A stretch of 64,000 bases of DNA from Lycium barbarum. Taxonomy: Eukaryota > Streptophyta > Magnoliopsida > Solanales > Solanaceae. Numbering within the stretch: position 1 is the stretch's first letter; every line of letters starts with the position of its first letter. Shown here one piece after another: positions 5,348 to 42,775 of this stretch. The notes beneath the pieces are model-generated. The model was not told the DNA's origin. It ran no database searches and worked only from the letters and a program-made list of their open reading frames with translations. The stretch is from NCBI RefSeq assembly GCF_019175385.1, contig NC_083341.1:89430321-89494320 (forward strand), written 5' to 3'. The position numbers were made by a program, and so were the translations under genes.

Positions 5348-6660
5348 TCACATACCTAGGGGCGATGGCGTCTCTGCCTGAGTCTCCTCTAAAGGTGGAA
5401 ATAAATACGAGTACCTGAACTTTATGTCTTCTTTCGCTTCCCATGTCATTTCCTCTCTGTTATTAGTTCTCCATAAGACTTTAACTGAAACTACATCTTT
5501 GGTTTTGAGTCTCTGTACTTGCCTATCTAGAATGGTAATGGGAACTTCTTTGTAGGATAATTGCTCAATGACTTGAACATCATCTATCGGTACAACTCTA
5601 GAAAGATCTCCAATGCACTTACGAAGCATCGATACATGGAAAACCAGATGAACTGACTCCAAATCCGCAGGTAGGTCTAATTCATAAGCCACTTGGCCTA
5701 CCTTGCGTACAATCTCATCAGGTCCAATGTAATGGGGACTAAACTTTCCCTTTTTGCCAAATATTATGACACCCTTCATTGGCAACACCTTCAAGAATAC
5801 CTAATCTTTCACTTGGAACTCTAAGTCTCTTCGACGATTATCTGCATAGGATTTCTGACGACTCTGAGTTGTTAATAATCGATCCTGTATAAGCTTGACT
5901 TTCTCTATAGCTTGTTGGACTAAGTCTGGCCTTATCAATTTGATCTCTCCTACTTTGAATCACCCAATTGGAGATCTACACTTCCGCTCATATAAAGCCT
6001 CATACGGAGCCATTTGGATGTTAGAATGATAACTATTGTCATAAGCAAATTCAATAAGTGGTAAGTGATCATCCTAACTACCTCCAAAATCCAATACATA
6101 TGTCTGTAGCATATCCTCAAGAGTTTGAATGGCACGTTCAGCTTGCCCATCCGTCTATGGGTGAAATGTCGTGCTAAGGCTCACCTGAGTCCCCAAACCT
6201 TCTTGGAAAGATTTCAAAAAATTGGTTGTAAACTGAGTCCCTCTATTGCAGATAATAGACATGGGAGCACCGTGAAGTCGCACTATCTCTTTAACATAAA
6301 GCTTTGCATAATCTTCTACTATATATGTAGTTCAAACCTGTAAGAAATGAGCTGACTTCATGAGTCTATCCAGAATCACCCATATAGAATCATATTTATG
6401 CCTAGAACGAGGCAAGCCTGCAAGGAAGTCCATATTAATCACTTCCCATTTCCAAGTTGGAATTTTCATACTTGCAACAATCCACCCGGTTTTTGGTGCT
6501 CAATTTTCACTTGCTGACAGTTAGGACATTGAGCAACGAATCCGCCATATCTTTCTTCATCCTATTCCACCAATATATAGATTTAAGATCATGATACATT
6601 TTCGTTGCTCCTGGGTGAACAGAATAATGGGAACAATGGGCTTCTCTCAATATTTGGTGG
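5348..6660 (-). pseudogene. Element A integrase and C-terminal chromodomain
   Basis: The minus strand from 6660 down to 5348 encodes an integrase in broken frames, then an open C-terminal stretch (5794-5348, 148 codons). The latter contains GKFSPHYIGP and FHVSMLRKC, followed by a chromodomain-like segment with VKVLWR and MTWEAKED. The chromodomain is what marks this element as a chromovirus; in that family it targets integration to chromatin. The integrase core between 5800 and 6650 is split by stops and frameshifts, so the protein is not functional. Confidence 0.8.
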
Positions 6661-10130: not shown

Positions 10131-10238
10131 CTGATATACATAACACACGGTTAAGGAAAGAGAAATCCTTATATCGTGGCTCTATCGCACGACCTTATGA
10201 AGAAATAAGGTCATTCATTTCTAAAATGCCCACATCCT

Positions 10239-10278
10239 CCAGTTTATAAGTGTGGCATACAACACACCCATAAACAAG
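10239..10278 (-). promoter_or_regulatory. Element A leader hairpin (loop palindrome decayed)
   Basis: The minus-strand arms CTTGTTTATGGGTGTG and CACACTTATAAACT pair around the loop TTGTATGC. In D, H and I the same loop is TTGCGCGC. The three changes (C to T, G to A, C to T) fit methyl-cytosine deamination of GCGCGC. Confidence 0.7.
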
Positions 10279-10321
10279 ACTCTACTGGACACGGCTCGTA
10301 GACACACCCTAGGATAGAACT

Positions 10322-10333
10322 GCTCTAATACCA
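10322..10333 (-). promoter_or_regulatory. Element A primer-binding site (initiator-Met tRNA type)
   Basis: The minus strand reads TGGTATTAGAGC four bases 3' of the LTR end. It differs by one base from TGGTATCAGAGC, the complement of the initiator methionine tRNA 3' end used by most plant Ty3/gypsy elements. Confidence 0.9.
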
Positions 10334-13235: not shown

Positions 13236-13247
13236 TGGTATCAGGGC
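13236..13247 (+). promoter_or_regulatory. Element B primer-binding site
   Basis: TGGTATCAGGGC lies four bases after the LTR end and matches the initiator-Met tRNA complement with one mismatch. Confidence 0.9.
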
Positions 13248-13290
13248 AATTCCATCCTAGGGTGTGTCTACGAGCCATGTCCAGTAGAGT

Positions 13291-13330
13291 CTTGTTTATG
13301 GGTGTGAAGTGCGCCGCACTTAAAAACAGG
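13291..13330 (+). promoter_or_regulatory. Element B leader hairpin (degenerate)
   Basis: The arm CTTGTTTATGGGTGTG is followed by a loop around AAGTGCGC and the arm CGCACTTAAAAACAGG. The stem is partly mispaired, and the loop GTGCGC is no longer self-complementary. It corresponds to the intact hairpins of D, E, C, H and I. Confidence 0.65.
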
Positions 13331-13439
13331 AGGCTGCGGGACATTTAGGAAAAATGACCATTCTTCTTCCTATTAGATCATGCCATAGAGCTATGTGATA
13401 AGATGTTCTCCTCCCTAATTGTGCATTATGATTTCAGAA

Positions 13440-22154: not shown

Positions 22155-22159
22155 CTCAC
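22155..22159. repeat. Target-site duplication of element D (CTCAC)
   Basis: CTCAC directly precedes D here and directly follows it at 40107-40111. Removing D restores the internal sequence of element C. Confidence 0.95.
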
Positions 22160-25100
22160 TATTATATCCCGTACTTTCGAGTGTTCGGGAAAATTTGAGA
22201 TAATTTTGATTTGTAAGGAATGAAGTCATGTGTTGATTTGAATTCACACATGTGTGTGTTTTTCATGAGAAATATTGGTGTGGAAATACGGAGGTAGGCC
22301 AAGGGCCAAATTTGGAATTTTGAAAATTAGTTTCGAGAATTACAAAACGAGAGTTATAAGTCTTTGGGCTCAAAAAAAACAAATATGAAAAATTAGGCCC
22401 AAAAGAGGGGGGTGGCCGGCCACTATGGCCCAAGCCCACACCTCACAATTTCCATGTGTTAAATATTAGATTAAGGGGGTCTTTAACCTTTAGAAGTTTC
22501 ATGAATAATTGAGAGAAAGAAAAAAAAATAAAGCAAGAGAGCAAGAACAAGAGGAGGGGTTTCGGCCCCTTCAAAAAGAAAAGAAAAAAATCTTAGCTCC
22601 TTGAATCATGGTCCAAAAATCATGATTTTCTAGTAATATTACTCACTCAAGTATGCTCTCCAACATGGTATAATTTTCAAGGCAAGAAGGTGTTTGTGTT
22701 GGCAAGTGGAGAATTGAAGAAGAGGTAAGGATTTCATGTTCTTGTGATGTTATGAAAGCTTGGTTTATGTTGTAGTGCATGGAAATGAGTGGAAATTATG
22801 AAAATATGGAAGTTTACATGGCATTTATATATATACATGTGTGGCCGTGTGTGTGCCTTGATGAATAGATAATATGAATTGAATTTTATGTTGTAATCTT
22901 GTTGTGGTTATGATGGAATTCATATTGAGAATGAAAGTGGAATGAATTTGGTTGAAGTTGGAAATTTATATGATTGGCCGTGTGATGTTTGAAAATTGAA
23001 ATGGAAATGAATTAATGTTGTTTAGTATGTTAATTGTGTCGTTGTGAAGTGAATGGAAGAATAATGGTTTTTGTTGAAATGGAAAGTTTGTTGTTGAGTT
23101 GTTGTAGGAAATATGTAACCTTATTGTAGTTTATGTAAATATAGAAATGGAAGTTTTGAGGTGTGAATTATGGTGATTGTTGATGAAGTGGAAGATGGAA
23201 ACATGTTATGAATATGTATGTTAAAGATTAGAAGTTTTGTATGATTTTATGACTTGGATGGAAAGTTGGTATATTTGGTATATCATGTGAATATTTCGTA
23301 AAAATGATATGAAATGCTTCCAAATGGCATTGTAATGATCTTGATTAATGATGACTATGAAAACATTGAGATTTGTTTGGAAGTGTGAAGTCGGAATGAA
23401 AGTTTTTGCGTTGTATCGAAAAGGAAGCTAGTTGTATTATGATGTGTTATATTGGTGATTGTTGTTGTTGTTAGTGTTGTTGTTGGTTTGGTTGTTGACA
23501 TATGGAGCCGAGCTAAGTCTCGGGGATGCTATGTATATAAAGGAAATGCTGCCGAAATTTCGGTAGGCAAGTATGTGCTTAAGTTGGGCCCTTAAGGCTT
23601 GAATTTGACAATTGGTAAAAGTGACCATTTGCAGATTTTGGACGGAACGGGAATCGAGTCTAGACGAGCGTAGAGCGCAACTAAGTTATCTAAAGCCTTC
23701 CCCTTCATTCTTTGGCATGTCCTAGACATACTAGGCTGAGATTTGAGCCTCGGGGGCAATTCTGCTCATAGAAATCCGAGATTGATTTTTGGTACTATTC
23801 ATTCAATGCAATTGAACTACAAAAGGTGCATTTTGTTAGAAAAATGGTTAAGCATCCGTAACTTTCACAAATGTAATCCGATCGCTCTGAAACTTTCCTA
23901 GGTGACTCCGTAGAGTATAATGCGCGTGATTCATGTCTGCCACCTCGACTTGACCCGAGGTGGGTCCGCAATCCCCGACTTCTCTTCTATGGTCCTGTTT
24001 GTTTCATTCTTGTACGATAAGTCAAAGGAACTTATGGTTATTGTTCCGACTACTAAACGGGAGTTATTTTAACTATTCTGAGTTTGATTTAATGTTTATT
24101 GAAATGATTGTTGAGACAGAAACCTTGATATCTTCGGAATGGCTTTAGCCAGCTCACTTTTGTCCGGAGCTCACAGGTAGCTCCTGGTTATTATGCTGTT
24201 CACTATACGATAGGTGCTATGACCACCGTTATGAGCCTTATAAAATATTTTTGACATCTAAACCGTTTTGAAAATCTTACCCTGATAATTTGGATAAACT
24301 ACTTATCTTCTGTATTTTCTGATATACGATTTTGGCATACCAGAATCTTGTGTGACGCATGATCCTGGCACGTGTGATTTATGTTTGGGAAGTAGTGATT
24401 TGGTATCCTGTATGGTTATTTTCTGTTTTACCGAGTCCCGGGCCGGTTATGTGAATATGCGTATATGTGATATTGGCCGCTGGACCCTCGACCGCGGCGT
24501 GTCCGACATTGACTGCTGGACCCTTGACCGCGTCATGCCGGACGTGTGGCATTGACTGCTGGACCCTTGACCGTGTCTGCCGCACTTGTGATTATGCCCG
24601 ACATAGACCGCTGGACCCTTGACCGCGGTATGTCGAAATTATGGTAGTGACCGCTGGATACTTGACCACGGTATGTATGATTGTGACCGCTGGATACTTG
24701 ACCGCGGTATGTGTGATTGTGACCGCTGGACCCCTGGCCGCGGTATGTGCGATAATGACCGCTGGGTACTTGGCCGCGGTATGCGTGATGGCGACCACTG
24801 GACTTATGGCCGCGGTAAGTGTGCGTTTGATTCTTTTGTATGCATGAAACAAAAATGATTTTCAAAAGAAAGTAAAGCATTTTGGCATTCTAATTGTCGT
24901 ATTCGTCAGCTGGAACCTCTTGTGTGTGACTTGCACGTCAGAGGTGACATTGTGGCATCCCGGTTATTCGTGCACACTCCGTTGCACTGTCTACTGCGCC
25001 CCTCATTAAATGGCCGAAACCTGATATAAATGTATATTATCTGTACTTGTGTAAGTTATGATTCTGTATGCATGGTTCTGCCTGTTACACTTCTAGACAG

Positions 25101-25860
25101 TTGATTCAGAGAATGATTCTGTCGGTGTTGCTTCTGTATGACTGAGCCGGACTATGATTCAGTCGGCTATAGTTCTGCACCCCTAGCTTTGGTTGCGGGT
25201 ACGTCAGTCGCACTCTGTGCCCCGATCCGCACGATGATCCTGTCAGTTAAGCTCTGTGCCTCTGTTTCATATCACGATTCAGACGGCTACACCCCGTGCT
25301 TATGATATATGTCGTGGTCCTGCACACACACTCTGTATTTCTGTTTCGGACTCGGGTCCGATCCTACTTGTTGTACTTCTATACTTCTGGCTCGGGTTTT
25401 GATTATATTGTTACATGGTCGCTTTACATACACGGTGCATTTCCGTACTGACCCCCTGTCCTTCGGGGGCTGCGTTTCATGCCGCGCAGGTACTCCCAAT
25501 TGAGGTGAGGACAGATGGAAGATATCTCAGCACAGATGGCAAGCTCCATTTGTTCCCGGAGTGCTGCCGAGTCAGAGCCTGTATGTTATGCGCTTGGAAT
25601 CTGGTTAGAGACTTTGCAGACAGTGTTGTGGGTGTTGGTTGTCGGTCTGTGTATGTAATGAATTTTGTATGTTCACAAATTTGTTCGGCCTGAGGGCCAC
25701 GGGAAAGAATTTTTCTGAAAGAAAAGTTTTGCTATGTACTTTATTATTTGATTTAAAAATAATATGACGTGATTTTATGTGTACCAAGAGTCTGAGGGTT
25801 CGCTCGGCCCTAAGTAAGGGTCGGGTGCCCATCACACCCTAGTGAGGTCGGGGTGTGACA
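22160..25860 (+). mobile_element. Element D 5' LTR
   Basis: 3701 bp from TATTATATCCCG (native TG changed to TA) to GGGTGTGACA. In order it holds a donor-like GAG|GTAAGG (22724/22725), the GGAAATGCTGCCGAAATTTC motif near 23546, a micro-exon-like segment (23635-23685), a 36-bp minisatellite (24474-24820) and the R/U5 stem GACCCCCTGTCCTTCGGGGG (25449-25470 region). The GT after the micro-exon has mutated to TT in this copy, while the 3' LTR retains GTATGT. Confidence 0.95.
24474..24820 (+). repeat. 36-bp minisatellite with CCGCGG core (D 5' LTR)
   Basis: About nine degenerate units of the form GACCGCTGGATACTTGACC then GCGGTATGTGTGATTGT. The central ACCGCGGT is palindromic. The same array is at about 38720-39066 in the 3' LTR with a few substitutions. 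Open frames across the array on both strands are by-products of its repeat length, a multiple of three. Confidence 0.9.
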
Positions 25861-25863
25861 GAG

Positions 25864-25875
25864 TGGTATCAGAGC
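25864..25875 (+). promoter_or_regulatory. Element D primer-binding site
   Basis: TGGTATCAGAGC, a perfect initiator-Met tRNA complement, starts three bases after the LTR end. Confidence 0.95.
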
Positions 25876-25919
25876 AGGTCTGTCCTAGGGGTTGTCTGCA
25901 AAGTCGTGTCCGGTAGAGT

Positions 25920-25958
25920 CTTGTTTGTGGTGTGTTGCGCGCCACATTTATAAACAAG
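25920..25958 (+). promoter_or_regulatory. Leader hairpin with GCGCGC loop (D)
   Basis: The arms CTTGTTTGTGGTGTG and CACATTTATAAACAAG enclose the loop TTGCGCGC, whose hexamer (25937-25942) is self-complementary. It lies 45 nt after the primer site. Placement and loop resemble the retroviral dimerisation initiation stem-loop. A function in RNA dimerisation or packaging is inference. Confidence 0.75.
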
Positions 25959-26043
25959 AGACTACGGGGCATCTAGGGATTGTTGATCTTCTTTGAATCC
26001 TAGACCGTGCGATAGAGCCAGCTGTAGGGAATGAATTCCTTCT

Positions 26044-26062
26044 TACTAACTCTTGATTTCAG
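26044..26062 (+). promoter_or_regulatory. Branch-point and 3' splice-site-like signal in the D leader
   Basis: TACTAAC at 26044-26050 is followed by TCTTGATTTCAG ending at 26062. This is a near-ideal branch site and acceptor. The same string appears in C (40219-40237, minus) and nearly so in F (ACTAACC ... CAACAG, to 49634). In coding elements the matching acceptor sits 1-3 nt before the gag ATG. Confidence 0.65.
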
Positions 26063-26755
26063 CTGGAGGACGATATCGACGTAAGGCAGCGACTGCCGAT
26101 ATTATAGGCTACACCGTACACAAGTAAGCAATGGTATGAAAGACGTATGCCGGGTAAGGTATTTGCAGTATGATTGAAACGTAAGGTTGAAAATTGAAAG
26201 GAAAAGTAAACAAGAATGTGTCGCCAGTGCCGTTTGAGTTGGGCACGTGAGGTAAGCCTCGACCTCTTTATACCCTCATCTGAAATTGTTAGCCCTGTGT
26301 GGCTATGATGCGATATGATATGATGTATATATACGTGTATGTGTTGGCCCTGTGAGGCGTGGTTGGTATTTCCTGTGTATAGGTTTTGCGATAGTGAGAA
26401 AGACAGAGGAACCTCTGCCCAAATTTTTCTAGAAATACGAAGAGGAAAATGAGATATAGATTCTTAACAAGTCTTGAAGGTCGATATCGATAGGGCAAAA
26501 ATGCCTAACGACCAAGTTTCCTCTAATTGGATGAATTCAAAGTGTATGACGGGTCGTTGAGAATTGAGCGGTTCGCTCACGACTCAGGAATATATATATG
26601 TACGCATAAAGGTAAACACTGAGGATTTACAGGGGACGACCCGGTAATCAGAAAAGTAAAAGAATCTTCTCTAGATCGGGGTGGGACCTGCTACGAGAAC
26701 GTTTTGAAAGCTGTTAAGACCCCGACTTGCCTTAAATTATGTGACCAAGGTCGTG

Positions 26756-26866
26756 TGGGGCAGTCGACGTAATTATGTCAGCATTAACGTGTCAAACGTG
26801 TGAAAGTTACGAAGTTAAGCGTGCTAGAGCCAGAGCAATTTTGGGATGGGTGACCCCCTGGGAAAT
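26756..26866 (+). ncRNA. 5S rRNA-derived segment inside element D
   Basis: GTTAAGCGTGCT at 26814-26825 matches the 5S internal promoter A box exactly. GGGATGGGTGACC then CCCTGGGAA (26843-26863) matches the C box and the following helix. The 5' half is aligned but weaker. The last roughly 20 nt of 5S are not recognisable. A TTTT run at 26876-26879 could act as a Pol III stop. It is a 5S-derived module, not a functional rRNA gene. Confidence 0.8.
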
Positions 26867-27403
26867 ATACCAAAATTTTCATGAATGTAAAAATGAAAGA
26901 CAAATAGGAAATCTGGGGTAACCCGAAGGAAATCGGAATGTACTAAACGATTGGGAACCCTAAATAGGCCGGGCAGGCCAAGGCCGACTCGGCTGGCGAA
27001 AGGGAAAGGAAACACAATACAATCCCTGGATCAGGGTAAGTTTGAATAAGCGTTTGGAAATGTTTTGCGAGCTAAATGGCAGTAGATGCATAGATGTGCA
27101 TATGATGTCTCGTTCGTGACTGTACCGATCCGTAGTGGGCCCCAGCGGCCAGTGTTACGATATCTGAAGATGTTAGCTAAACGAAACTTGGAAGGCAAGT
27201 AAAAGGTGTGATATAGAGGCGTTATGAAGTAAACGAGTACTGAACTTGTTAAAATAAGGGTTGAATCTTCCGTTACAGCAATATTAATGAAGAAGAGGAA
27301 ATGTGAGTAAGCGGAAGAAAGAGAGATAGCAATGGCAACTCTTGGAAATCTTCGAAGGGAAGACGGATACCTCCCCGGATGTAAGAGAAGACCCCATAAG
27401 GTC

Positions 27404-27408
27404 AGTTT
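27404..27408. repeat. Target-site duplication of element E (AGTTT)
   Basis: AGTTT directly precedes E and directly follows it at 36363-36367. Excising E reconstitutes the D junction leading into its palindrome and polypurine tract. Confidence 0.95.
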
Positions 27409-30400
27409 TGTTATGTCCCGTGTTTTCGTATAATTGGAAATCGAGAAATAATTAAGACTTGTGTGTTATAAGGGAATATTTTGATTCTAGTTGATGTGAC
27501 TATGTTGGTTATGAAATCATTGATGTTAAGACATTGGGGAAGGCCGAGGGTAAATTTGGAATTTCGGAAATTAGTTTCGGGAATTACAAAACGGGACTTT
27601 TAATGAATTGGGCCAAGGAAATTGAAATAACAATTTGGGCCCAAAGAGGTGGGGTGGCCGGCCACTAGGCATGGGCCAAGCCCACTTTTAAAAGTCATGT
27701 GCTATGCACATGACCTCTATATGGATATATATCAAGTAATACTTGGAAATTATCAAGAAAAAAATTGCAACTCCAACTTTGAGCTCTAGGAGCCCTTCGG
27801 CCGAACCCCTTTCCTTTTAAAAAAAACAAATTCCCAAGCCTTTGATTCTAATCCAAGTATCTTGATTCTCCCATATTTGTAAAGTACTCAAGACCCTCTT
27901 CAACGGGGTATAATTAATTTGGCAAAAGGTGCGCGTTTGCGGCAAGTCGGAAATTCAAGAGAAAGGTAAGAATTTTGCCCCTCAAATGTTATGGAATTGG
28001 TATGAATGTGTTAAGGATTGAGAATAGACGAGAATCCCGTAGTTTTGATGTGTGTAGAAAACCGTGGGTGTGTGTGTATAAGGTGTTGTGACCGTGTGCC
28101 TAAGAAGGAGAAAGAAGTGTGAATTTGATCTTGTTTAGTTTGTTTATTGCGTCGTTGTGACAATTATGATGTAAATGATCGTTTAACGAATTGAATTGGT
28201 GTTGAAAAAAATAATTTCGGAACATTATCGGAAAGTATATACCTTTGGTATATTTGTGTATATCATTGTATATCTATGATACTAAAAGACTTTAAATGTG
28301 ACTTATGGTTGATGTTAATGAATTTGGAATGAAACAAAGCGAGTTAGAATGTTCGCCGTAAGTTTTTGATGTTTTGGATGAAATATGGAAAGTAATGAAC
28401 TTTGGGAAATTTTGTATATTGTTTGGAGTGTAATTGGGATGGGTTTGAATAATCTTGAATGGGTGAATGAATACAATAATGTGGGCATAAGTTTGGAATT
28501 GTGAAGTTTGAATGAAAGTTGTCAACTTGTGTAGTAAGGTAGAACTTTAAAGTTAGAATGACTTGATTGTGGTTTATGTTGTTTGATGATGTTTGGGTTG
28601 TTGTTGTTGATGTATTTTGAGCCGAGCTAAGTCTCGGGGGTGTTAGATTTATAGGGGAAATGCTGCCGAAATTTCGGTAGCCAAGTATAGCCCAAAGGTT
28701 AAGATGTTAACTTTCATGAATAGTAACTGGTGAAAGTGACCATTTGCAGTTTTTGGACGAAACGGGAATTGAGATTTGACGAGCGTAAGGCGCAATCCAG
28801 GTATGTAAAGCCTACCTTTCCTTCTTTTGGAATGTCCTAGTCATACTATGTTAAGATCGGACCCTCGGGGATAATTCTGCTCTTGGAAATCCGAGTTCAA
28901 GTTTGGGCACTATTCATTCAGCGCAATTGAAACCTATTCCTTATATTTGGTTGAAAGAATGTTCAAACCTTCATAACTTTTGCTATTGTGTCCGAATCTC
29001 TCCGAAACTTTCGTAGATGGCTTTATGGAGCCTAAAGTTCGTGATTTGTGTCCGCCGCCTCGATTTGACTCAAGGTGGGCCCGTAAGCCCCGAGGCTTCC
29101 CTTATTTGGTTTGTTTGACTCATTTCCGTCCGATATGAAAAGTGATCGTTTGCCTAGGACTCAAAGGTCCGTTTGAAATTTCCTATATCGTTATTGAACG
29201 TTTGCACTATGAATGATGTTAGATTTTCGGAAGATGACTTGTGAATTGTTTTTCAAAGGTTTTGCAGTTTGGAACTTCGCAACTTCCATATATTAACTCT
29301 GATCGAACTGACTCCTACTCCGAGCCTTCAGGCGTCGGTATATGCCTATATGTAATTATATGTCGAGTCTTGTAATTTACTTTTGATATGCATATGGTTT
29401 CTGCACTACTCCGTTCGTGCCATTCGCTATGATTTCGTTCGTCGGTACCCGGGCCGGCTTTGTGATCGTGCGCGCTATACCATATACGGAAGTATGATGT
29501 GTTACGGTTTTTGAGGCCTCGCCATAGGCCGGTTACCGTTTATGGAGTTATGATGTGATATGGCATTTGATATGTTCTGATGATGTGATATGTGTGTGAT
29601 ACGATTTGTCTGGAGACTGTACGGAGATTTGAAAAACTTCTGGAGTATGATGTGTTGTGGCACCAGCGTCGGGGGGGGGGGGGGGGGTGACCACGTTCCT
29701 AAGCCCTATACATGACTTTTATTTGCATTTGTACATTTATCTTCCGTACAGGTTTGATTTGCTACTTTGACGTTTGTGTTTGTTCCTTCTGACTCCAGTT
29801 ATGATTGTGATTTCTGTACCTTCTGCTTTATATACTCAGCACTTCTCCCGTACTGACCCCCTGTTCTTCGGGGGGCTGCGTTTCATGCCCGCAGGTACAG
29901 AAGCTCGTTTGGGTGGTCCTCCGGTTTAGGCTACCTATTCTGCTATTTTGGAGATGTCCCCTTGATCCGGAGCTTAACTTTTGGTACATACCTTTTGCTG
30001 TGTGTGGATTCTGTACATTTGTGGCTGTGTGGGTACGGCGGTGCCCTGTCCCGTCATATGTTCGTATGTTCTGTTTTGTTTTAGAGGCCTGTAGTTATGT
30101 TTGTGGGTCGTGGGTCCGGTGTGTTTGTATGTGGATCTGTTTTGCGTTCTTAAGCGGCCCGTATGCTACTATGGCCAAGACGGCCCATGAGTTTGTAGGT
30201 GTGTGTGTGCATTTGGGCGATGTAAATTCCACCACCTTTCTGATTTTGATATGACTGTTCTGCAGGGGCGACCGCTTAAGATAAGTGTTCGATCAATGTT
30301 CGTGTGACGTCTGCTATTAGTTTCAGTTCGAACAACGTATGTTAAGTCTGAATGAGTCTTAATATGATGATCTGGTTTGTGACTCTGTTTGGGGTGCCTA

Positions 30401-30441
30401 AGTAGGGCACCAGTCGCGGCCCATGGGGTTGGGTCGTGACA
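27409..30441 (+). mobile_element. Element E 5' LTR
   Basis: It runs from TGTTATGTCCCGTG to GGTTGGGTCGTGACA. It contains a donor-like AAAG|GTAAGAATT (27965/27966), GGGAAATGCTGCCGAAATTT (28657 region), a 51-nt micro-exon-like segment (28750-28800) bounded by ATTTGCAG and GTATGTAAAG, a G17 run (29671-29687; G7 in the 3' LTR), and the paired R/U5 hairpins (29835-29898). A 113-codon frame at 29913-30254, also present in the 3' LTR, has no recognisable domain. Confidence 0.95.
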
Positions 30442-30445
30442 AAAG

Positions 30446-30457
30446 TGGTATCAGAGC
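30446..30457 (+). promoter_or_regulatory. Element E primer-binding site
   Basis: TGGTATCAGAGC, a perfect initiator-Met tRNA complement, lies four bases after the LTR end. Confidence 0.95.
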
Positions 30458-30498
30458 GGTTTGTCCTCGGAATGTCTACAGGCCGTGTCTCGTAGAGT

Positions 30499-30538
30499 CT
30501 TGTTTATCGATGTGTTGTGCACCACATCTATAAACAGG
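30499..30538 (+). promoter_or_regulatory. Leader hairpin with GTGCAC loop (E)
   Basis: The arms CTTGTTTATCGATGTG and CACATCTATAAACAGG pair with one mismatch and one wobble around the loop TTGTGCAC. The hexamer at 30517-30522 is self-complementary but differs from the GCGCGC of D, H and I. Element C has the same GTGCAC form. Confidence 0.75.
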
Positions 30539-30726
30539 AGGCTACAGGGCATTTAGGGTGTTACTCTTCTTTGGATTCTTAGATCGTGCGATAAAGCTGT
30601 ATGATTAGGACAATTCTCCCCTACGAATTGTTGTATCTACGGCGAGGCTCCAAAGAGCAGAAGTGTCGGTATTTGGGGAAAATGTTTCTGACCCTCTTCC
30701 TGCAGGTGATTATAGGTTGATAAATA

Positions 30727-31242
30727 ATGAAGAGGAGCGCTTCGGATGATGGGGATGGGGGTGCTAATAAGGCCCCTAGGACATCACCAGGACCGAGTAG
30801 GCAGACCCCCAGCTACTCGATTGAGACAGACCCTTCGGAGGATCCAGAGACAATTCCTCCAGAGTTTTTGATCCCCAGAGTAGAGGCTCCCAGGGAAGAC
30901 AGCTATGACACCGACCCTTCGGAGGACCCAGCGACGATACCTCCAGAGTTTCTTACTCCCAGGGAGGAGGATAGCCCCGATGCTGAACCACCAGAGCATC
31001 CCTCTGGGACGCCGTAGGAGGAGGTTCCCGAGGATGTGCCAGCAGCTCTGGTAGTGGAGCAGTATGTTAGACAGGCTTCCCCGGAGAGTGTTACGCCCTA
31101 CTCCAGCCCTTTGTCCTGGCCGTCGGTGAACCAGGAATTGCCAGGCTATCTACACTCCTCCGATTCAGATGCAGGTAATAGTGGGGGCCAGACAGACGAC
31201 GATGATGAGGGACACAGTTCCCACAGCAGCTCCCCAGGTTAG
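30727..31242 (+). pseudogene. Acidic, Pro-rich ORF of element E, interrupted by one TAG
   Basis: The ATG at 30727 lies 21 nt after a splice-acceptor-like CTTCCTGCAG (to 30705). The frame reads MKRSASDDGDGGANKAPR and includes two similar blocks containing TDPSEDPETIPPEFL and TDPSEDPATIPPEFL. It meets TAG at 31015-31017 and continues in frame to TAG at 31240-31242 with a Ser/Asp-rich tail (DSDAGNSGG, HSSHSSSPG). The length is 171 codons if the first stop is ignored. It lacks capsid, zinc knuckle or enzyme motifs. It may be a gag-leader relic or an element-specific protein; I do not recognise it. Confidence 0.55.
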
Positions 31243-31985
31243 ACCCGAGTTTGATCAGTTATGAGTACGTAAGTTTCCTAAGATTCTCGGTATGTGTATG
31301 ATATTTGTAAAACGTTGTTCAATGACGATAACAGAAATTTAAAAGGATTAGCGACCTAGTGATCGAAGGCAAGGGCGACTGAGATGTCCCCACCGTCAGT
31401 GTGAGTCTGGAAATCCTGGATGAAAGTAAACAGGAAAGTACCTCCAATGCCGTTTGAGATGGGCACGTGTGGTAAGTGTCGACGACGTTATAATTCTTAT
31501 TTGAAGTTATCAGCCCCGTGTGGCTGCGATACGACATGATATGATATGTATGTATGTGTATATATGTTGGCCTTGTGAGGCCCGGTTGGTATTTCTGGTG
31601 TACAGGTTTTGGATAGTAAGAAAAACAGAGGAACCTCTGCCCAAATTTTTCCAGAAATATGGAAGTAAATATGTAGATTAAGTGCTAAAGGGTTCCGCGA
31701 TACTTGTCGGAATTTAGTTTTCTTCTGTCGGTGGCCGGAGAACACCTTACGGTGACAATTATCAGACTCCACCGACTATTTGGAGGCGGAATTCGTAGGA
31801 CGAAGATTTAAATCTATGGGTTGTCCGTAATTGTGTGTATATGTGTATGAAAGTGAATGCTGAAGATTCAGAAAGGCAGCGCGGTAATTGTATGACTTAG
31901 CCCGGGGTGGGACCCGCTACGAGAATTCTTCGAAAAATTTGCTAAGACCCTGATCTTCCCTAAAATTTTGTGACAAAGGTCGTGC

Positions 31986-32098
31986 GGGGCAATCGACGAA
32001 ATTATATTATCCCTAACGCGTCAAAATGCATGAAAGTTTCGAGGTTAAGCGTGCTCAAGCCAGAGCAATTCTGGGACGGGTGACCCCCTGGGAAGTAA
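31986..32098 (+). ncRNA. 5S rRNA-derived segment inside element E
   Basis: GGTTAAGCGTGCT (32043-32055) and GGGACGGGTGACC then CCCTGGGAAGT (32073-32096) match the 5S A and C boxes, with one change in the C box. The 5' half is more diverged. The position relative to the conserved block and polypurine tract matches D and F. Confidence 0.75.
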
Positions 32099-32572
32099 TG
32101 CAAAGTTTCTCACAAGCGAAAGTATGATAAATATAAATGGAAATTTGGGGTAACCAAAAGGAAAATAGAATGTGTGGGGTAATTAGTGCCCTTACAGGAG
32201 TCGCGCAGAACGAGGCGGACTAAATGGGCAAAAAGAAAAGGTACCACACCGCTCGGGAAATTGAGCGAATTCGAACAACAGTCTGAGACATTCGCCAGTA
32301 AGGTATTAGTAAGTGTGTGTATGTGTGTGTGTATGATTTTCGTTTGGTGTCCATATGGAACAAGAGCCGAGTCCAGGCGACTAATATTGTGAGTGATGAA
32401 GAATAAGAGTGTGAATAAGCGGAACCTCTGAAGGAGCCGATGAGCGACACGCAAGACAATTTGTATGATCACTTGGCAAACAAGTTTACAAATAAAGGGA
32501 AATCCTCATGAATCATTGGAGCCATAATAGGAGCGATTTGATCCTAATTCGGTATTCTATCTGTTGTACTTC

Positions 32573-32970
32573 TACACTCCCGATTCCGATAAGGCTCTGC
32601 CTAGTACGCCTCTGTATTTCTGAGCTTGATTATGTTCCCATCTGATGAATTTTTGTGCGTCTGATTCTGAATACGTTTCTGTCTGGCACACCCCTGTATG
32701 TCTGACTCTGGATATAAATCCGTCTGATATGCCTTTGTACGTCTGATTTTGATCACGCGTCTGTCTGATACATCTTCGTATGTCTGATACACTTCGGTCT
32801 GTCTGACTTCGATCACGACTCTGTATGACACAATTCTGTACATCTGATTCTGATTTCAAATCTGTCGGATACCTCTCTGTACGTCTGACTCCGATCTCAG
32901 ATTTGTCTGACATACTTCCGTACCTCTGATTTTGACTATGAATCCGTCCGATATGCTTATACGCGTCCGG
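32573..32970 (+). repeat. Degenerate ~41-bp minisatellite in element E
   Basis: About nine units of the form CTGTATGTCTGACTCTGAT then CACGAATCTGTCTGATAC. Unit length is close to 41-42 bp with substitutions and small indels. Minus-strand frames across it (for example 32572-33099) owe their length to the repeat. Confidence 0.8.
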
Positions 32971-33300
32971 CCCTAGCTCTGAATCTGTTGGCATAAAGTG
33001 TCTGGTGTGAAGTAAAGTGAGATTACGACGATGTGGTAAGGAACCCAGAAGTGTAGCTAGAATGATATTGATTATAATGTCTGGGAAGCGTTTGTCCATT
33101 ACAAGAATATAGCGTATGGTTCGGTGATTACGTGGGGTATGAGAAAATGTATTAGGAAGGCATTTGAATCAGTGATGTGAAAATTTTTATTTACCCCCCC
33201 CCCCCCTAATGTTGATAAAGAAGCCATGTCGGAAAAGCAACAAAGGACAACTATAAAGAGAACCCTTCTGAAGTAGTATGACGCCCCATGAGGTCAACTT

Positions 33301-33336
33301 AACATTCGAGGACGAATGTTCTTAAGGGGGGGAGAA
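33301..33336 (+). promoter_or_regulatory. Element E palindrome and polypurine tract
   Basis: AACATTCGAGGACGAATGTT (33301-33320) is a perfect 8-bp inverted repeat with an AGGA centre. AAGGGGGGGAGA follows, directly before the 3' LTR. Confidence 0.95.
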
Positions 33337-36300
33337 TGTTATGTCCCGTGTTTTCGTATAATTGGAAATCGAGAAATAATTAAGACTTGTGTGTTATAAG
33401 GGAATATTTTGATTCTAGTTGATGTGACTATGTTGGTTATGAAATCATTGATGTTAAGACATTGGGGAAGGCCGAGGGTAAATTTGGAATTTCGGAAATT
33501 AGTTTCGGGAATTACAAAACGGGACTTTTAATGAATTGGGCCAAGGAAATTGAAATAAAAATTTGGGCCCAAAGAGGTGGGGTGGCCGGCCACTAGGCAT
33601 GGGCCAAGCCCACTTTTAAAAGTCATGTGCTATGCACATGACCTCTATATGGATATATATCAAGTAATACTTCGAAATTATCAAGCAAAAAATTGCAACT
33701 CCAACTTTGAGCTCTAGGAGCCCTTCGGCCGAACCCCTTTCCTTTTAAAAAAAAAAAAATTCCCAAGCCTTTGATTCTAATCCAAGTATCTTGATTCTCC
33801 CATATTTTTAAAGTACTCAAGACCCTCTTCAACGGGGTATAATTAATTTGGCAAAAGGTGCGCGTTTGCGGCAAGTCGAAAATTCAAGAGAAAGGTAAGA
33901 ATTTTGCCCCTCAAATGTTATGGAATTGGTATGAATGTGTTAAGGATTGAGAATAGACGAGAATCCCGTAGTTTTGATGTGTGTAGAAAACCGTGGGTGT
34001 GTGTGTATAAGGTGTTGTGACCGTGTGCCTAAGAAGGAGAAAGAAGTGTGAATTTGATCTTGTTTAGTTTGTTTATTGCGTCGTTGTGACAATTATGATG
34101 TAAATGATCGTTTAACGAATTGAATTGGTGTTGAAAAAAATGATTTCGGAACATTATCGGAAAGTATATACCTTTGGTATATTTGTGTATATCATTGTAT
34201 ATCTATGATACTAAAAGACTTTAAATGTGACTTATGGTTGATGTTAATGAATTTGGAATGAAACAAAGCGAGTTTGAATGTTCGCCGTAAGTTTTTGATG
34301 TTTTGGATGAAATATGGAAAGTAATGAACTTTGGGAAATTTTGTATATTGTTTGGAGTGTAATTGGGATGGGTTTGAATAATCTTGAATGGGTGAATGAA
34401 TACAATAATGTTGGCATAAGTTTGGAATTGTGAAGTTTGAATGAAAGTTGTCAACTTGTGTAGTAAGGTAGAACTTTAAAGTTAGAATGACTTGATTGTG
34501 GTTTATGTTGTTTGATGATGTTAGGGTTGTTGTTGTTGATGTATTTTGAGCCGAGCTGAGTCTCGGGGGTGTTAGATTTATAGGGGAAATGCTGCCGAAA
34601 TTTCGATAGCCAAGTATAGCCCAAAGGTTAAGATGTTAACTTTCATGAATAGTAACTGGTGAAAGTGACCATTTGCAGTTTTTGGACGAAACGGGAATTG
34701 AGATTTGACGAGCGTAAGGCGCAAACCAGGTATGTAAAGCCTACCTTTCCTTCTTTTGGCATGTCCTAGTCATACTATGTTAAGATCGGACCCTCGGGGA
34801 TAATTCTGCTCTTTGAAATCCGAGTTCAAGTTTGGGCACTATTCATTCAGCGCAATTGAAACCTATTCCTTATATTTGGTTGAAAGAATGTTCAAACCTT
34901 CATAACTTTTGCTATTGTGTCCGAATCTCTCCGAAACTTTCGTAGATGGCTTTATGGAGCCTAAAGTTCGTGATTTGTGTCCGCCGCCTCGATTTGACTC
35001 AAGGTGGGCCCGTAAGCCCCGAGGCTTCCCTTATTTGGTTTGTTTGACTCATTTCCGTCCGATATGAAAAGTGATCGTTTGCCTAGGACTCAAAGGTCCG
35101 TTTGAAATTTCCTATATCGTTATTGAACGTTTGCACTATGAATGATGTTAGATTTTCGGAAGATGACCTGTGAATTGTTTTTCAAAGGTTTTTGCAGTAT
35201 GGAACTTCGCAACTTCCATATATTAACTCTGATCGAACTGACTCCTACTCCGAGCCTTCTGGCGTCGGTATATGCCTATATGTAATTATATGTCGAGTCC
35301 TGTAATTTACTTTTGATATGCATATGGTTTCTGCACTACTCCGTTCGTGCCATTCGCTATGATTTCGTTCGTCGGTACCCGGGCCGGCTTTGTGATCGTG
35401 CGCGCTATACCATATTCGGAAGTATGATGTGTTACGGTTTCCGAGGCCTCGCCATAGGGCTGGTTACCGTTTATGGAGTTATGATGTGATATGGCATTTG
35501 ATATGTTCTGATGATGTGATATGTGTGTGATACGATTTGTCTGGAGACTGTACGGAGATTTGAAAAACTTCTGGAGTATGATGTGTTGTGGCACCAGCGT
35601 CGGGGGGGTGACCACGTTCCTAAGCCCTATACATGACTTTTATTTGCATTTGTACATTTATCTTCCGTACAGGTTTGATTTGCTACTTTGACGTTTGTGT
35701 TTGTTCCTTCTGACTCCAGTTATGATTGTGATTTCTGTACCTTCTGCTTTATATACTCAGTACTTCTCCCGTACTGACCCCCTGTTCTTCGGGGGGCTGC
35801 GTTTCATGCCCGCAGGTACAGAAGCTCGTTTGGGTGATCCTCCGGTTTAGGCTACCTATTCTGCTATTTTGGAGAGCTCCCCTTGATCCGGAGCTTAACT
35901 TTTGGTACATACCTTTTGCTGTGTGTGGATTCTGTACATTTGTGGCTGTGTGGGTACGGCGGGGCCCTGTCCCGTCATATGTTCGTATGTTCTGTTTTGT
36001 TTTAGAGGCCTGTAGTCATGTTTGTGGGTCGTGGGTCCGGTGTGTTTGTATGTGGATCTGTTTTGCGTTCTTAAGCGGCCCGTATGCTACTATGGCCAAG
36101 ACGGCCCATGAGTTTGTACGTGTGTGTGTGCATTTGGGCGATGTAAATTCCGCCACCTTTCTGATTTTGATATGACTGTTCTGCACGGGCGACCGCTTAA
36201 GATAAGTGTTCGATCAATGTTCGTGTGACGTCTGCTATTAGTTTCAGTTCGAACAACGTATGTTAAGTCTGAATGAGTCTTAATATGATGATCTGGTTTG

Positions 36301-36362
36301 TGAGTCTGTTTGGGGTGCCTAAGTAGGGCACGAGTCGCGGCCCACGGGGTTGGGTCGTGACA
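33337..36362 (+). mobile_element. Element E 3' LTR
   Basis: It is almost identical to the 5' LTR. The donor-like AAAG|GTAAGAATT is at 33894/33895, the 51-nt micro-exon-like segment at 34679-34729, and the R/U5 hairpins at 35754-35818. It ends GGTCGTGACA and is followed by the duplicated AGTTT. Confidence 0.95.
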
Positions 36363-36367
36363 AGTTT

Positions 36368-36403
36368 AACATTCGAGGACGAATGTTCTAAAGGGGGGGA
36401 GGA
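36368..36403 (+). promoter_or_regulatory. Element D palindrome and polypurine tract
   Basis: AACATTCGAGGACGAATGTT (36368-36387), then TAAAGGGGGGGAGGA, directly before the D 3' LTR. E integrated immediately upstream, leaving this signal intact. Confidence 0.95.
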
Positions 36404-39400
36404 TGTTATATCCCGTACTTTCGAGTGTTCGGGAAAATTTGAGATAATTTTGATTTGTAAGGAATGAAGTCATGTGTTGATTTGAATTCACACATGTGTG
36501 TGTTGTTCATGAGAAATATTGGTGTGGAAATACGGAGGTAGGCCAAGGGCCAAATTTGTAATTTTGAAAATTAGTTTCGGGAATTACAAAACGAGAGTTA
36601 TAAGTCTTTGGGCTCAAAAAAAACAAATATGAAAAATTAGGCCCAAAAGAGGGGGGTGGCCGGCCACTATGGCCCAAGCCCACACCTCACAATTTCCATG
36701 TGTTAAACATTAGATTAAGGGGGTCTTTATCCTTTAGAAGTTTCATGAATAATTGAGAGAAAGAAAAAAAAAATAAAGCAAGAGAGCAAGAACAAGAGGA
36801 GGGGTTTCAGCTCCTTCAAAAAGAAAAGAAAAAAATCTTAGCTCCTTGAATCATGGTCCAAAAATCATGATTTTCTAGTAATATTACTCACTCAAGTATG
36901 CTCTCCAACATGGTATAATTTTCAAGGCAAGAAGGTGTTTGTGTTGGCAAGTGGAGAATTGAAGAAAAGGTAAGGATTTCATGTTCTTGTGATGTTATGA
37001 AAGCTTGGTTTATGTTGTAGTGCATGGAAATGAGTGGAAATTATGAAAATATGGAAGTTTACATGGCATTTATATATATACATGTGTGGCCGTGTGTGTG
37101 CCTTGATGAATAGATAATATGAATTGAATTTTATGTTGTAATCTAGTTGTGGTTATGATGGAATTCATATTGAGAATGAAAGTGGAATGAATTTGGTTGA
37201 AGTTGGAAATTTATATGATTGGCCGTGTGATGTTTGAAAATTGAAATGGAAATGAATTAATGTTGTTTAGTATGTTAATTGTGTCGTTGTGAAGTGAATG
37301 GAAGAATAATGGTTTTTGTTGTAATGGAAAGTTTGTTGTTGAGTTGTTGTACGAAATATGTAACCTTATTGTAGTTTATGTAAATATAGAAATGGAAGTT
37401 TTGAGGTGTGAATTATGGTGATTGTTGATGAAGTGGAAGATGGAAACATGTTATGAATATGCATGTTAAAGATTAGAAGTTTTGTATGATTTTATGACTT
37501 GGATGGAAAGTTGGTATATTTGGTATATCGTGTGAATATTTCGTAGAAATGATATGAAATGCTTCCAAATGGCATTGTAATGATCTTGATTAATGATGAC
37601 TATGAAAACGTTGAGATTAGTTTGGAAGTGTGAAGTCGGAATGAAAGTTTTTGCGTTGTATCGAAAAGGAAGCTAGTTGTATTATGATGTGTTATAGTGG
37701 TGATTGTTGTTGTTGTTAGTGTGGTGTTTTGGTTTGGTTGTTGACATATGGAGCCGAGCTAAGTCTCGGGGATGCTATGTATATAAAGGAAATGCTGCCG
37801 AAATTTCGGTAGGCAAGTATGTACTTAAGTTGGGCCCTTAAGGCTTGAATTTGACAATTGGTAAAAGTGACCATTTGCAGATTTTGGACGGAACGGGAAT
37901 CGAGTCTGGACGAGCGTAGAGCGCAACTAAGGTATGTAAAGCCTTCCCCTTCATTCTTTGGCATGTCCTAGACATACTAGGCTGAGATTTGAGCCTCGGG
38001 GGCAATTCTGCTCATAGAAATCCGAGATTGATTTTTGGTACTATTCATTCAATGCAATTGAACTACAAAAGGTGCATTTTGTTAGAAAAATGGTTAAGCA
38101 TCCGTAACTTTCACAAATGTAATCCGATCGCTCTGAAACTTTCCTGGGTGACTCCGTAGAGTATAATGTGCGTGATTCATGTCTGCCACCTCGACTTGAC
38201 CCGAGGTGGGCCCGCTATCCCCGACTTCTCTTCTATGGTCCTGTTTGTTTCATTCTTGTACGATAAGTCAAGGGAACTTATGGTTATTGTTCCGACTACT
38301 AAACGGGAGTTATTTTAACTATTCTGAGTTTGATTTAATGTTTATTGAAATGATTGTGGAGACAGAAACCTTGATATCTTTGGAATGGCTTTAGCCAGCT
38401 CACTTTTGTCCGGAGCTCACAGGTAGCTCCTGGTTATTATGCTGTTCACTATACGATAGGTGCTATGACCACCTTTATGAGCCTTATAAAATATTTTTGA
38501 CATCTAAACCGTTTTGAAAATCTTACCCTGATAATTTGGATAAACTACTTATCTTCTGTATTTTCTGATATACGATTTTGGCATACCTGAATCTTGTGTG
38601 ACGCATGATCCTGGCACGTGTGATTTATGTTTGGGAAGTAGTGATTTGGTATCCTGTATGGTTATTTTCTGTTTTACCGAGTCCCGGGCCGGTTATGTGA
38701 ATATGCGCATATGTGATATCGGCCGCTGGACCCTCGACCGCGGCGTGTCCGACATTGACTGCTGGACCCTTGACCGCGTCATGCCGGACGTGTGGCATTG
38801 ACTGCTGGACCCTTGACCATGTCTGCCGCACTTGTGATTATGCCCGACATAGACCGCTGGACCCTTGACCGCGGTATGTCGAAATTGTGGTAGTGACCGC
38901 TGGATACTTGACCACGGTATGTATGATTGTGACCGCTGGATACTTGACCGCGGTATGTGTGATTGTGACCGCTGGACCCCCGGCCGCGGTATGTGTGATA
39001 ATGACCGCTGGGTACTTGGCCGCGGTATGCATGATGGCGACCACTGGACTTATGGCCGCGGTAAGTGTGCGTTTGATTCTTTTGTATGCATGAAACAAAA
39101 ATGATTTTCAGAAGAAAGTAAAGCATTTTGGCATTCTAATTGCCGTATTCGTCAGCCGGAACCTCTTGTGTGTGACTTGCACGTCAGAGGTGACATTGTG
39201 GCATCCTGGTTATTCGTGCACACTCCGTTGCACTGTCTACTGCGCCCATCATTAAAGGGCCGAAACCTGATATAAATGTATATTATCTGTACTTGTGTAA
39301 GTTATGATTCTGTATGCATGGTTCTGCCTGTTACACTTCTAGACAGTTGATTCAGAGAATGATTTTGTCGGTGTTGCTTCTGTATGACTGAGCCGGACTA

Positions 39401-40106
39401 TGATTCAGTCGACTATAGTTCTGCACCCCTAGCTTTGGTTGCGGGTACATCAGTCGCACTCTGTGCCCCGATCCGCACGATGATCCTGTCAGTTAAGCTC
39501 TGTGCCTCTGTTTCATATCACGATTCAGACGGCTACACCCCGTGCTTATGATATATGTCGTGGTCCTGCACACACACTCTGTATTTCTGTTTCAGACTCG
39601 GGTCCGATCCTACCTGTTGTACTTCTATACTTCTGGCTCGGGTTTTGATTATATTGTTACATGGTCTCTTTACATACTCGGTGCATTTCCGTACTGATCC
39701 CCTGTCCTTCGGGGGCTGCGTTTCATGCCGCGCAGGTACTCCCAGTTGAGGTGAGGATAGATGGAAGATATCTCAGCATAGATGGCAAGCTCCATTTGTT
39801 CCCGGAGTGCTGCCGAGTCAGAGCCTGTATGTTATGCGCTTGGAATCTGGTTATAGACTTTGCAGACAGTGTTGTGGGTGTTGGTTGTCGGTCTGTGTAT
39901 GTAATGAATTTTGTATGTTCACAAATTTGTTCGGCCTGAGGGCCACGGGAAAGAATTTTTCTGAAAGAAAAGTTTTGCTATGTACTTTATTATTTGATTT
40001 AAAAAAAATATGACGTGATTTTATGTGTACCAAGAGTCTGAGGGTTCGCTCGGCCCTAAGTAAGGGTCGGGTGCCCATCACACCCTAGTGAGGTCGGGGT
40101 GTGACA
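36404..40106 (+). mobile_element. Element D 3' LTR
   Basis: 3703 bp, TGTTATATCCCG to GGTGTGACA. Splice-like signals are intact here: AAAG|GTAAGG (36969/36970), the acceptor ATTTGCAG (to 37880), and a 51-nt segment (37881-37931) followed by GTATGTAAAG. The 36-bp minisatellite is at about 38720-39066 and the R/U5 stem at about 39686-39720. Confidence 0.95.
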
Positions 40107-40111
40107 CTCAC

Positions 40112-40403
40112 CTTGATGATGGCCAGTTTGCCATTCTGTATATACAATTTCTGATAACTCTGACCTCTGTAACTCCCAGTAGTATTATTTGCTTTCTCTT
40201 GTCGACACCACTCTCCTGCTGAAATCAAAGGTTAGTATAAGGGATTTCATTTCCTATGGCTGGGCTCTATCGCACGATCTTAGATATGAAAGAAAGGTAA
40301 CATCCTAAATGTCCTGTAGCTTCTTGTTTATAGATGTGGTGCACAACACACTGATAAACAAGACTCTACTAGACACGGTCTGTAGACACTCCGAGGATGA
40401 ACT
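40112..40403 (-). other. Element C leader region with splice-acceptor-like site
   Basis: Minus-strand sequence after the primer site. It includes the leader hairpin and, at 40237-40219, TACTAACCTTTGATTTCAG, a textbook branch site and acceptor. No ATG-led gag follows before the D insertion at 40106. Confidence 0.75.
40323..40362 (-). promoter_or_regulatory. Leader hairpin with GTGCAC loop (C)
   Basis: The minus-strand arms CTTGTTTATCAGTGTG and CACATCTATAAACAAG pair almost fully around the loop TTGTGCAC. The palindrome is at 40339-40344. Stem ends are CTTG/CAAG, whereas E has CTTG/CAGG and F has CCTG/CAGG. Confidence 0.75.
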
Positions 40404-40415
40404 GCTCTGATACCA
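40404..40415 (-). promoter_or_regulatory. Element C primer-binding site
   Basis: The minus strand reads TGGTATCAGAGC, a perfect initiator-Met tRNA complement, four bases from the LTR end at 40420. Confidence 0.95.
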
Positions 40416-41198: not shown

Positions 41199-42775
41199 CT
41201 CCTCTGGAGAAGAAAGAATTAATTCTGAGCTTCACCAACTAGCCAGCCTTGGAATTCGCCTAATTGATTCAAGCAATGCAGGACTTGGTATCCACGACCC
41301 AACTGTTTTGTCCCTAGATATGGAGGTGAGAGAGCGCCAATATGAAGATCCCCAGTTGATTCACTATAGAGATACATTTCGTGAGAAAGAGAAGTCGCAT
41401 TTTTTAAGTTACTACAGATGGAGTCCTTAGATATCGACACAGACTATGTGTTTCGAATGTTGCCGAACAACATCGTCGTATTCTAGAAGAAGCTCATTAC
41501 TCTCGGTACTCTATACAACCAGGGGCAACAAAGATGTATCATGATCTTAGGCTGATGTATTGGTCGGATGGAATGAAGAATGATATAGCAGAATTTATAG
41601 CCCAATGTCCAAATTGCCAACAAGTGAAGATCGAGCATCAAAAGCCAGGAGGATTGTTACAAGCCATGGACATTCCAACCAAGAAATGGGAAGTGATCAA
41701 CATGGATTTTATTGTAGGGTTGGCTCATTCCCGAAGCAAGCATGACTCCATATGGGTGATCGTGGACAGACTTACGAAATCAGCCCATTTTCTTCCGGTC
41801 AGAACCACACATTCGGCAGAAGATTATGCAAGGTTGTATCTTAAAGAGATTATGCGACTTCACGACATCCCGGTGTCTATTATTACTGACAGAGGAGCAC
41901 AATTTATAGCTAAATTTTGGAAGTCCTTCCAAGAAGGTTTGGGTACTCAGGTAAGGCTTAGCATAGTGTTTCATCCACAAACTGATGGACAAGCCGAACG
42001 CACTATTCAGACCTTGGAAGACATGTTAAGGGCATGTGTGCTAGATTTCGGTGGTAGCTGGAATGACCACTTACCTCTCGTGCAGTTCGCATACAACAAC
42101 AACTATCATTTCGGTATTCAAATGGCCCCATATGAAGCTTTATATGCAAGAAAGTGTAGATCCCCAATTGGGTGGTTTGAAGTAGGAGAGGTACAGCTAA
42201 TAGGCCCTGAGTTGATTCAACAAGCGGTGGAAAAGTTCAAGGTTATCAACTATTGACAGCCCAAAGTCGTCAGAAATCTTATGCGGACAATCGTCGACGA
42301 GACTTAGAATTCCAAGTTGATGATTGGGTATTCTTGAAGGTGTCACCGATAAAAGCGTGATGAGATTTGGTAAGAAGGGAAAGTTAAGTCCTCGATACAT
42401 TGAACATTATAAGATTGTGCGCAAGATAGGCCAAGTAGCTTATGAACTAGATTTACCTCCAGAACTTGAATCAGTCCATCCAGTCATTCACATATCAATA
42501 CTCCGTAAGTGTGTCGGAGATCCTACTAGGGTCTTGCCGGTAGATGATGTTCAAATGACTGAAAAGTTTGACTTATAAAGAGGTAACCATTGTCATACTA
42601 GATAGACAAGTACGGAGGCTTAGAAACAAAGAGGTAGCCACGGTTAAGGTCTTGTGGAGGAATAAAAATCAAGAGGAAACGACTTGGGAAGCGGAAGAAA
42701 ACATGGAGTCCAAGTACCCGCACTTATTTCAACCCTCGAAAGAGATCCAAGATGAGACTTCAATATTATGAGGTA
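41199..42775 (+). pseudogene. Element B linker, integrase and chromodomain
   Basis: After the C junction B continues with the linker before integrase (HQLASLGIR, ERQYEDPQLIHYRD), then a 240-codon open stretch (41534-42256). This has the second zinc-finger cysteines (CPNCQQVK) and an intact D,D-35-E triad: D in MDFIVGL, D in ITDRGAQF (41888-41890), E in GQAERTIQ (41996-41998). TGA near 42254 and a frameshift separate it from the C-terminal part (42324-42578) and a chromodomain-like end (42568-42771; VKVLWRNKNQEETTWEAEEN). The domain order confirms a chromovirus. Confidence 0.9.

Follow-up and report, generated by a model that had tools for sequence, protein, structure and literature searches.

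A conserved leader hairpin with the anatomy of a dimerisation initiation site in Ty3/gypsy elements of Lycium barbarum

LTR elements make up the majority of many plant genomes and, to our knowledge, it is hardly known how they choose and pair their RNA. The stretch of Lycium barbarum DNA analysed here (64,000 nucleotides, hereafter the window) raises this question at a precise place, just 3' of the primer-binding site (PBS), where several elements carry a hairpin with the self-complementary hexamer GCGCGC in its loop. Is this hairpin a dimerisation initiation site (DIS), by which two genomic RNAs meet through a kissing loop? Our results reveal a conserved and abundant RNA hairpin with DIS anatomy, and the comparison of its natural variants suggests that this is also its likely function; we put the probability that it acts as a kissing-loop DIS at about 0.6.

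The leaders were located with TGGTATCAGAGC, which we take to be a PBS of the tRNA-iMet type. Allowing up to two mismatches, nine places were found in the window, eight of which adjoin an LTR-like end (...GTGACA) and were taken as the PBSs of elements A (10322-10333, - strand), B (13236-13247, +), D (25864-25875, +, exactly TGGTATCAGAGC), E (30446-30457, +), F (40404-40415, -), G (49432-49443, +), H (54586-54597, +) and I (59491-59502, +). The ninth, at 55054, lies inside the gag region of H and is without hairpin. Directly 3' of the PBS (25876-25890 in D and the equivalent place in the other leaders) stands a stretch RGTTY..TCCTMGG, which presumably resembles a sequence complementary to the T arm of the initiator tRNA and could be an extra primer contact; in the predicted fold, it also pairs with TTTAGGA 3' of the rod described below. 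Extended pairing of the tRNA with this stretch (TTC..TCCTRGG) was set aside as a candidate, its score being reached by 7 to 454 of 500 shuffles across the leaders and by under 5% of them only in A (12/500) and B (7/500).

The loop TTGCGCGC occurs three times on the + strand of the window (25935, 54655 and 59562) for 0.21 expected, and three or more occurrences were obtained in 0/100 shuffles. Each copy sits in a hairpin 41-43 nt 3' of the 12-nt PBS match of D, H or I, which confirms the GCGCGC-loop hairpins reported for these three elements in the preliminary description. The feature is wider than first noted, with the Ty3/gypsy-type leaders of A, B, E, F and G carrying it as well, so that it is present in 8/8 window elements with a PBS, 40-43 nt downstream of it. 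As for the stem, a hairpin stem is found as first described, but the single shared GTGTG/CACAC stem turned out to be a composite: D combines CTTGTTTGT with GTGTG/CACAT, the stem of H contains GTGAG/CACGC and is interrupted by an A.A mismatch, and I has CTTGGTTAT/ATAAACGAG with one mismatch.

When the 175 nt 3' of each of the eight PBSs were aligned and folded together with RNAalifold, the hairpin appeared as the tip of a longer rod of ∼68 nt (alignment columns 43-110). In D, the rod spans 25906-25972 (+), with its tip at 25919-25959, the loop TTGCGCGC at 25935-25942 and the hexamer GCGCGC at 25937-25942. The same hexamer is found at 54657-54662 in H (rod 54626-54692, tip 54639-54679, +) and at 59564-59569 in I (rod 59532-59599, tip 59545-59586, +), while the GTGCAC variant announced earlier was recovered in E (hexamer 30517-30522, rod 30485-30552, +) and F (hexamer 40339-40344, rod 40309-40376, -). 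Five of the eight hexamers are thus perfect palindromes. Two others are self-complementary with G.U, namely GTATGC in A, which is so only with G.U (10255-10260, rod 10225-10292, -), and GTGCGC in B (13309-13314, rod 13277-13344, +), and one, GCCGAC in G (49505-49510, rod 49473-49540, +), is not self-complementary; the nearest fetched leader to G (L052, four differences away) has GCCGGC. Across the whole window, Rfam gave no match at gathering score, and a match over the leader of I (E 3.1) was taken as chance.

The stability of this structure was compared with column shuffles keeping gaps and conservation (500 each). The rod reached an alifold z of -9.0 and its tip (columns 55-98) a z of -8.4, none of the 500 shuffles being as stable in either case, whereas the alignment on either side of the rod showed no excess stability (z 1.6 for columns 1-42, z 0.2 for columns 111-181). 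Taken singly, the hairpins ranged from z -1.8 (H) to -7.5 (G). The hexamer is predicted to be free in six of the eight window elements (P 0.83 in A, 0.91 in F and I, 0.93 in E and 0.99 in B and G), but not in D (P 0.04) or H (P 0.35), two of the three elements first described, where an alternative register buries the hexamer against the 5' strand of the stem; this burial counts against a kissing-loop site. Such burial seems unusual genome-wide according to the same kind of prediction, as the hexamer is unpaired with P over 0.5 in 91/100 sampled leaders and still so in 17 of the 19 sampled leaders that share the one-base gap of D and H.

How general is the hairpin? Genome-wide counts rest on one genome, that of the window itself (1,669,677,424 bases in 164 contigs). 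When any 8-nt loop was allowed, the inner stem, written GTGTG(N8)CACAYYTATAAAC, was found at 24,304 places (12,063 + 12,241) and the reversed-pattern control at none; a PBS with up to three mismatches was found 63-66 nt upstream of the inner stem in 28 of the first 30 loci, the upstream part being damaged or rearranged in the remaining two. In the first 100 stem-pattern loops, the hexamer is perfectly palindromic in 76 cases and, once G.U is allowed, self-complementary in 85. Because selection by the hairpin itself was to be avoided, a pattern limited to the PBS and the next bases was also used, yielding 27,925 places (13,937 + 13,988; control 0), of which the first 100, all on contig C1, provided a sample of 115-nt leaders picked without regard to the hairpin and sharing 26 loci with the stem-picked one. 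On visual inspection, 100/100 of them show the hairpin, one (L198) having a 3'-arm deletion; each of the 16 tip pairs is formed in 90-99 of 99 or 100 leaders and each of the ten outer pairs in 81-100/100. Their hexamer is a perfect palindrome in 81/100 and self-complementary with G.U in 87/100 (GTGCAC 44, GCGCGC 36, GCCGGC 1, the remaining 19 being spread over 14 forms), where a random 8-nt loop would contain a 6-nt palindrome in ∼5% of cases (3/64, computed by hand). Beyond this genome, the PBS-hairpin pattern gave only two phage-like matches in viral_contigs, taken as chance, a second pattern gave no match in genome_contigs and viral_contigs, and RT and gag pieces used as queries returned no confirmed relative.

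Loop states were counted over all loci of the stem pattern. GTGCAC (9,563) and GCGCGC (6,997) dominate the 24,304 loci, places 2 and 5 of the hexamer are matched in 94.6% of the loci with one of the four states C..G, T..A, C..A and T..G, and the mixed states GCGCAC (357) and GTGCGC (581) are rare. Among the 2,495 CG-centred loops, the 100 listed comprise GCCGGC 89, GCCGAC 8, GTCGGC 1, GACGGC 1 and GACGAC 1 by an eye count, and from these sequences GCCGGC is a third palindrome group in which both central bases have changed. In three leaders of this group (L046, L047 and L054), TCCTAGG is missing from the segment that separates the PBS from the rod, and L046-L050 follow each other on C1 at 5-11 kb in one orientation, perhaps as a tandem array of elements. 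A/T-centred loops are found at 164 loci, of which the 100 listed include GCATGC 70 and GCTAGC 5, the rest being mixed. GCATGC leaders have as nearest neighbours mostly GCGCGC leaders or decayed forms, in several groups, and the two GCTAGC leaders examined neighbour GCCGGC or GCCGGT.

These states bear first on the possibility that the rod is an RNA element of another kind, involved in Gag/nucleocapsid binding, packaging, reverse transcription or translation control, whose loop is conserved in sequence and whose palindrome is incidental, with no kissing. The strong conservation of the rod would suit such a role, as would the nearly fixed G...C ends of the hexamer (90/100 leaders), which could equally belong to a protein site, and the non-palindromic GCCGAC does occur, in G and in 8/100 listed members of its group. 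However, the founder loops GCGCGC, GTGCAC, GCCGGC, GCATGC and GCTAGC differ at 4/6 places and are still self-complementary, and the mixed states remain at 357 and 581 of 24,304. We therefore regard a sequence-conserved loop as unlikely, although it is the best of the alternatives to a kissing-loop site.

Tests of selection on pairing gave a more nuanced picture. An absence of significant stem covariation, named in the preliminary description as a refutation, was indeed the outcome: in an R-scape-like test with tree-based null columns, no significant pair emerged among all 4,465 column pairs, the best one (E 0.64) being non-structural, hexamer places 2-5 ranking first among structural pairs (E 7.7), and the central pair and the best stem pair reaching E 49 and E 119, respectively. 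For the majority of pairs, however, variation is too slight, or consists of G.U steps alone, for covariation to become visible. The 115-nt tree offers only two supported independent pairs, which leaves such a comparison underpowered, and a single clade for GTGCAC gave p-AU 0.478, a single origin not being rejected. Transitions starting from Watson-Crick pairs of the stem keep pairing in 56 cases and break it in 27 (13:9 on internal and 43:18 on terminal branches; 59:26 with the all-column tree), which speaks for RNA-level constraint. An RNA rather than a protein constraint, as put forward in the preliminary description, is also reasonable because the leader is non-coding in all elements. In the loop, terminal branches show ten transitions that keep and 11 that break pairing, plus three coupled changes, a ratio expected of dead copies. 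On internal branches, three changes are coupled, and one step breaks a loop pair that the following step restores; a statement that all internal loop changes are compensated was dropped on account of the breaking step revealed by this stricter count. Loop drift away from self-complementarity, named at the outset as a second refutation, is seen in individual decayed copies, but no large group has it as its prevailing state.

Most loop changes on terminal branches are C>T or G>A, which brings up a second alternative, a chance ancestral palindrome followed by CpG decay, self-complementarity merely reflecting common descent. GTGCAC, GTGCGC, GCGCAC and GCATGC can indeed be derived from GCGCGC by one or two C-to-T/G-to-A changes, GTGCAC may have a single origin, and GCATGC leaders are mostly nearest to GCGCGC leaders of several groups. 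Such decay fits poorly with GCCGGC, whose derivation from GCGCGC requires two transversions, and with the 9,563 copies of GTGCAC versus 357 and 581 for the one-step intermediates, which makes GTGCAC a replicating state. Moreover, GTGCGC and GCGCAC are reverse complements with the same trinucleotide context and yet occur at 581:357, an asymmetry that favours self-complementarity (binomial p 2.6e-13, the copies being non-independent). The opposite asymmetry was observed for GCCGAC (8) versus GTCGGC (1) among the 100 listed, which is the wrong direction for wobble tolerance. The five palindromes, the dominance of matched states and the 581:357 ratio argue for selection on self-complementarity, while the 8:1 ratio, the covariation test, the possible single origin of GTGCAC and the two independent pairs argue against it; decay from a chance palindrome appears improbable. 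As for a function in DNA, inverted repeats can act as cruciform, recombination or silencing targets and the elements are very numerous, but many stem pairs are G.U (e.g. T.G in 62/100 at one pair and G.T in 48/100 at another), which is good pairing only in RNA, and the 56:27 split keeps such pairs, making this role very improbable.

The preferred reading, a kissing-loop DIS, would work as follows. Directly downstream of the PBS, the leader of the genomic RNA folds into a long rod presenting an 8-nt loop, whose six 3' bases would pair with the corresponding loop of another such RNA. This loop-loop pairing may start a dimer, which would then be packaged and reverse-transcribed. In line with such pairing, the predicted gain upon co-folding of rod homodimers is 7.4-14.7 kcal/mol for self-complementary loops and 0.9 for G, these energies, like the duplex energies given below, being predictions for strands and not for kissing complexes.

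The closest parallel is the HIV-1 DIS (stem-loop 1), which likewise lies in the leader, between PBS and gag, and exposes a self-complementary hexamer in its loop; its three prevalent palindromes, according to PMC5874298, are GCGCGC, GUGCAC and GUGCGC, and all three occur in the leaders of this genome (as GCGCGC, GTGCAC and GTGCGC). In contrast to HIV-1, the plant hexamer lies at the 3' end of the 8-nt loop on a much longer rod, and it has no following purine (none in 100 stem-picked loops) and usually TT before it (65, with AA in a minority of 21); we treat purine flanks as an HIV-1-specific trait rather than a general DIS requirement. The dimer is known in HIV-1, whereas the plant hairpin is a candidate by its sequence, and no kinship by descent is implied. 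Closer in class, yeast Ty3 depends for dimerisation in vitro on a palindrome that occupies an apical hairpin close to the 5' end of its RNA, but this PAL6 sequence, CUGCAG at +391-396, is one of three in the GAG ORF according to PMC11381356 and is not directly after the PBS. In plants, the Gag-less barley element BARE2 is packaged and reportedly retains the signals for dimerisation and packaging; the BARE1/BARE2 couple is Ty1/copia and not gypsy, and the comparison is one of description, without loop sequence or structure (PMC3735527, in its account of the couple). Encapsidation of Ty1 and Ty3 is reviewed in PMC4974528, dimerisation is named in general terms only in the pertinent parts of PMC3902901, and the main text of a 2025 review of the plant LTR-element life cycle does not contain 'dimeri' (PMC12786077). 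In the full-text literature, most subscription papers being outside the scope of the search, no such site was found described for plant Ty3/gypsy elements, so that the DIS kind is known and its membership in these elements is apparently new.

The distribution of the hairpin over coding and non-coding elements adds a further dimension. Retrotrans_gag, zf-CCHC, RVT_1 and Integrase_H2C2 exceed their Pfam cut-offs on domains spread across different window elements, with a gag frame 3' of the leader of I, zinc-knuckle and RT frames 3' of that of H and an integrase in frame at 41408-42253; rve (31.0 bits) stays below its cut-off of 32.6, and Chromo reaches 19.8 bits versus 25.1 in the frame at 5351-5800. 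Taken together, the window elements display the gag, zinc knuckle, RT, integrase, LTRs and PBS of Ty3/gypsy elements, possibly of the Tekay/Del-like chromovirus lineage. Element D (22160-40106, +; LTRs 22160-25860 and 36404-40106) is flanked by the duplication CTCAC (22155-22159 and 40107-40111) and hosts the nested element E (27409-36362, +; LTRs 27409-30441 and 33337-36362), itself flanked by AGTTT (27404-27408 and 36363-36367). The longest + strand frame is 58 aa in the internal piece of D (1,548 nt) and 97 aa in the internal region of E (2,894 nt). D is unusually LTR-heavy, with LTRs of ∼3.7 kb versus an internal region of ∼1.6 kb apart from the insertion of E, whose LTRs measure 3 kb. The H LTR is present in two copies, 94.4% alike, in the same direction and 62 bases apart, directly before the PBS of H (52021-54581), perhaps through recombination or an adjoining solo LTR. 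Hence, coding and non-coding elements alike carry the hairpin, as the preliminary description stated for H and I on the one hand and D on the other. The LTRs of D (over 3,701 aligned columns) and those of E are both 98.4% alike, which indicates that these non-coding carriers moved not long ago (92.0% for the LTRs of A). Since D and E have the same hairpin as the gag-bearing H and I, their entry into the particles of other elements is possible, and non-coding elements may retain the hairpin because packaging by Gag made elsewhere needs it.

More speculatively, plant Ty3/gypsy RNAs might dimerise via a kissing loop that has converged on the three hexamers of HIV-1, the hexamer being a self-recognition code that contributes to how non-autonomous and autonomous RNAs are matched within particles. 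This rather doubtful extension comes from modelled energies, as GCGCGC, GTGCAC and GCCGGC are predicted to pair better with themselves (-10.9, -7.9 and -11.7 kcal/mol, respectively) than with each other (-6.6, -2.8 and -2.2 kcal/mol).

To conclude, this work uncovers a compact, family-wide candidate site whose natural loop variants make RNA pairing in plant elements directly testable. For non-coding elements, the site is a plausible ticket into particles. If true, it would also represent a striking convergence of plant Ty3/gypsy elements with lentiviruses.
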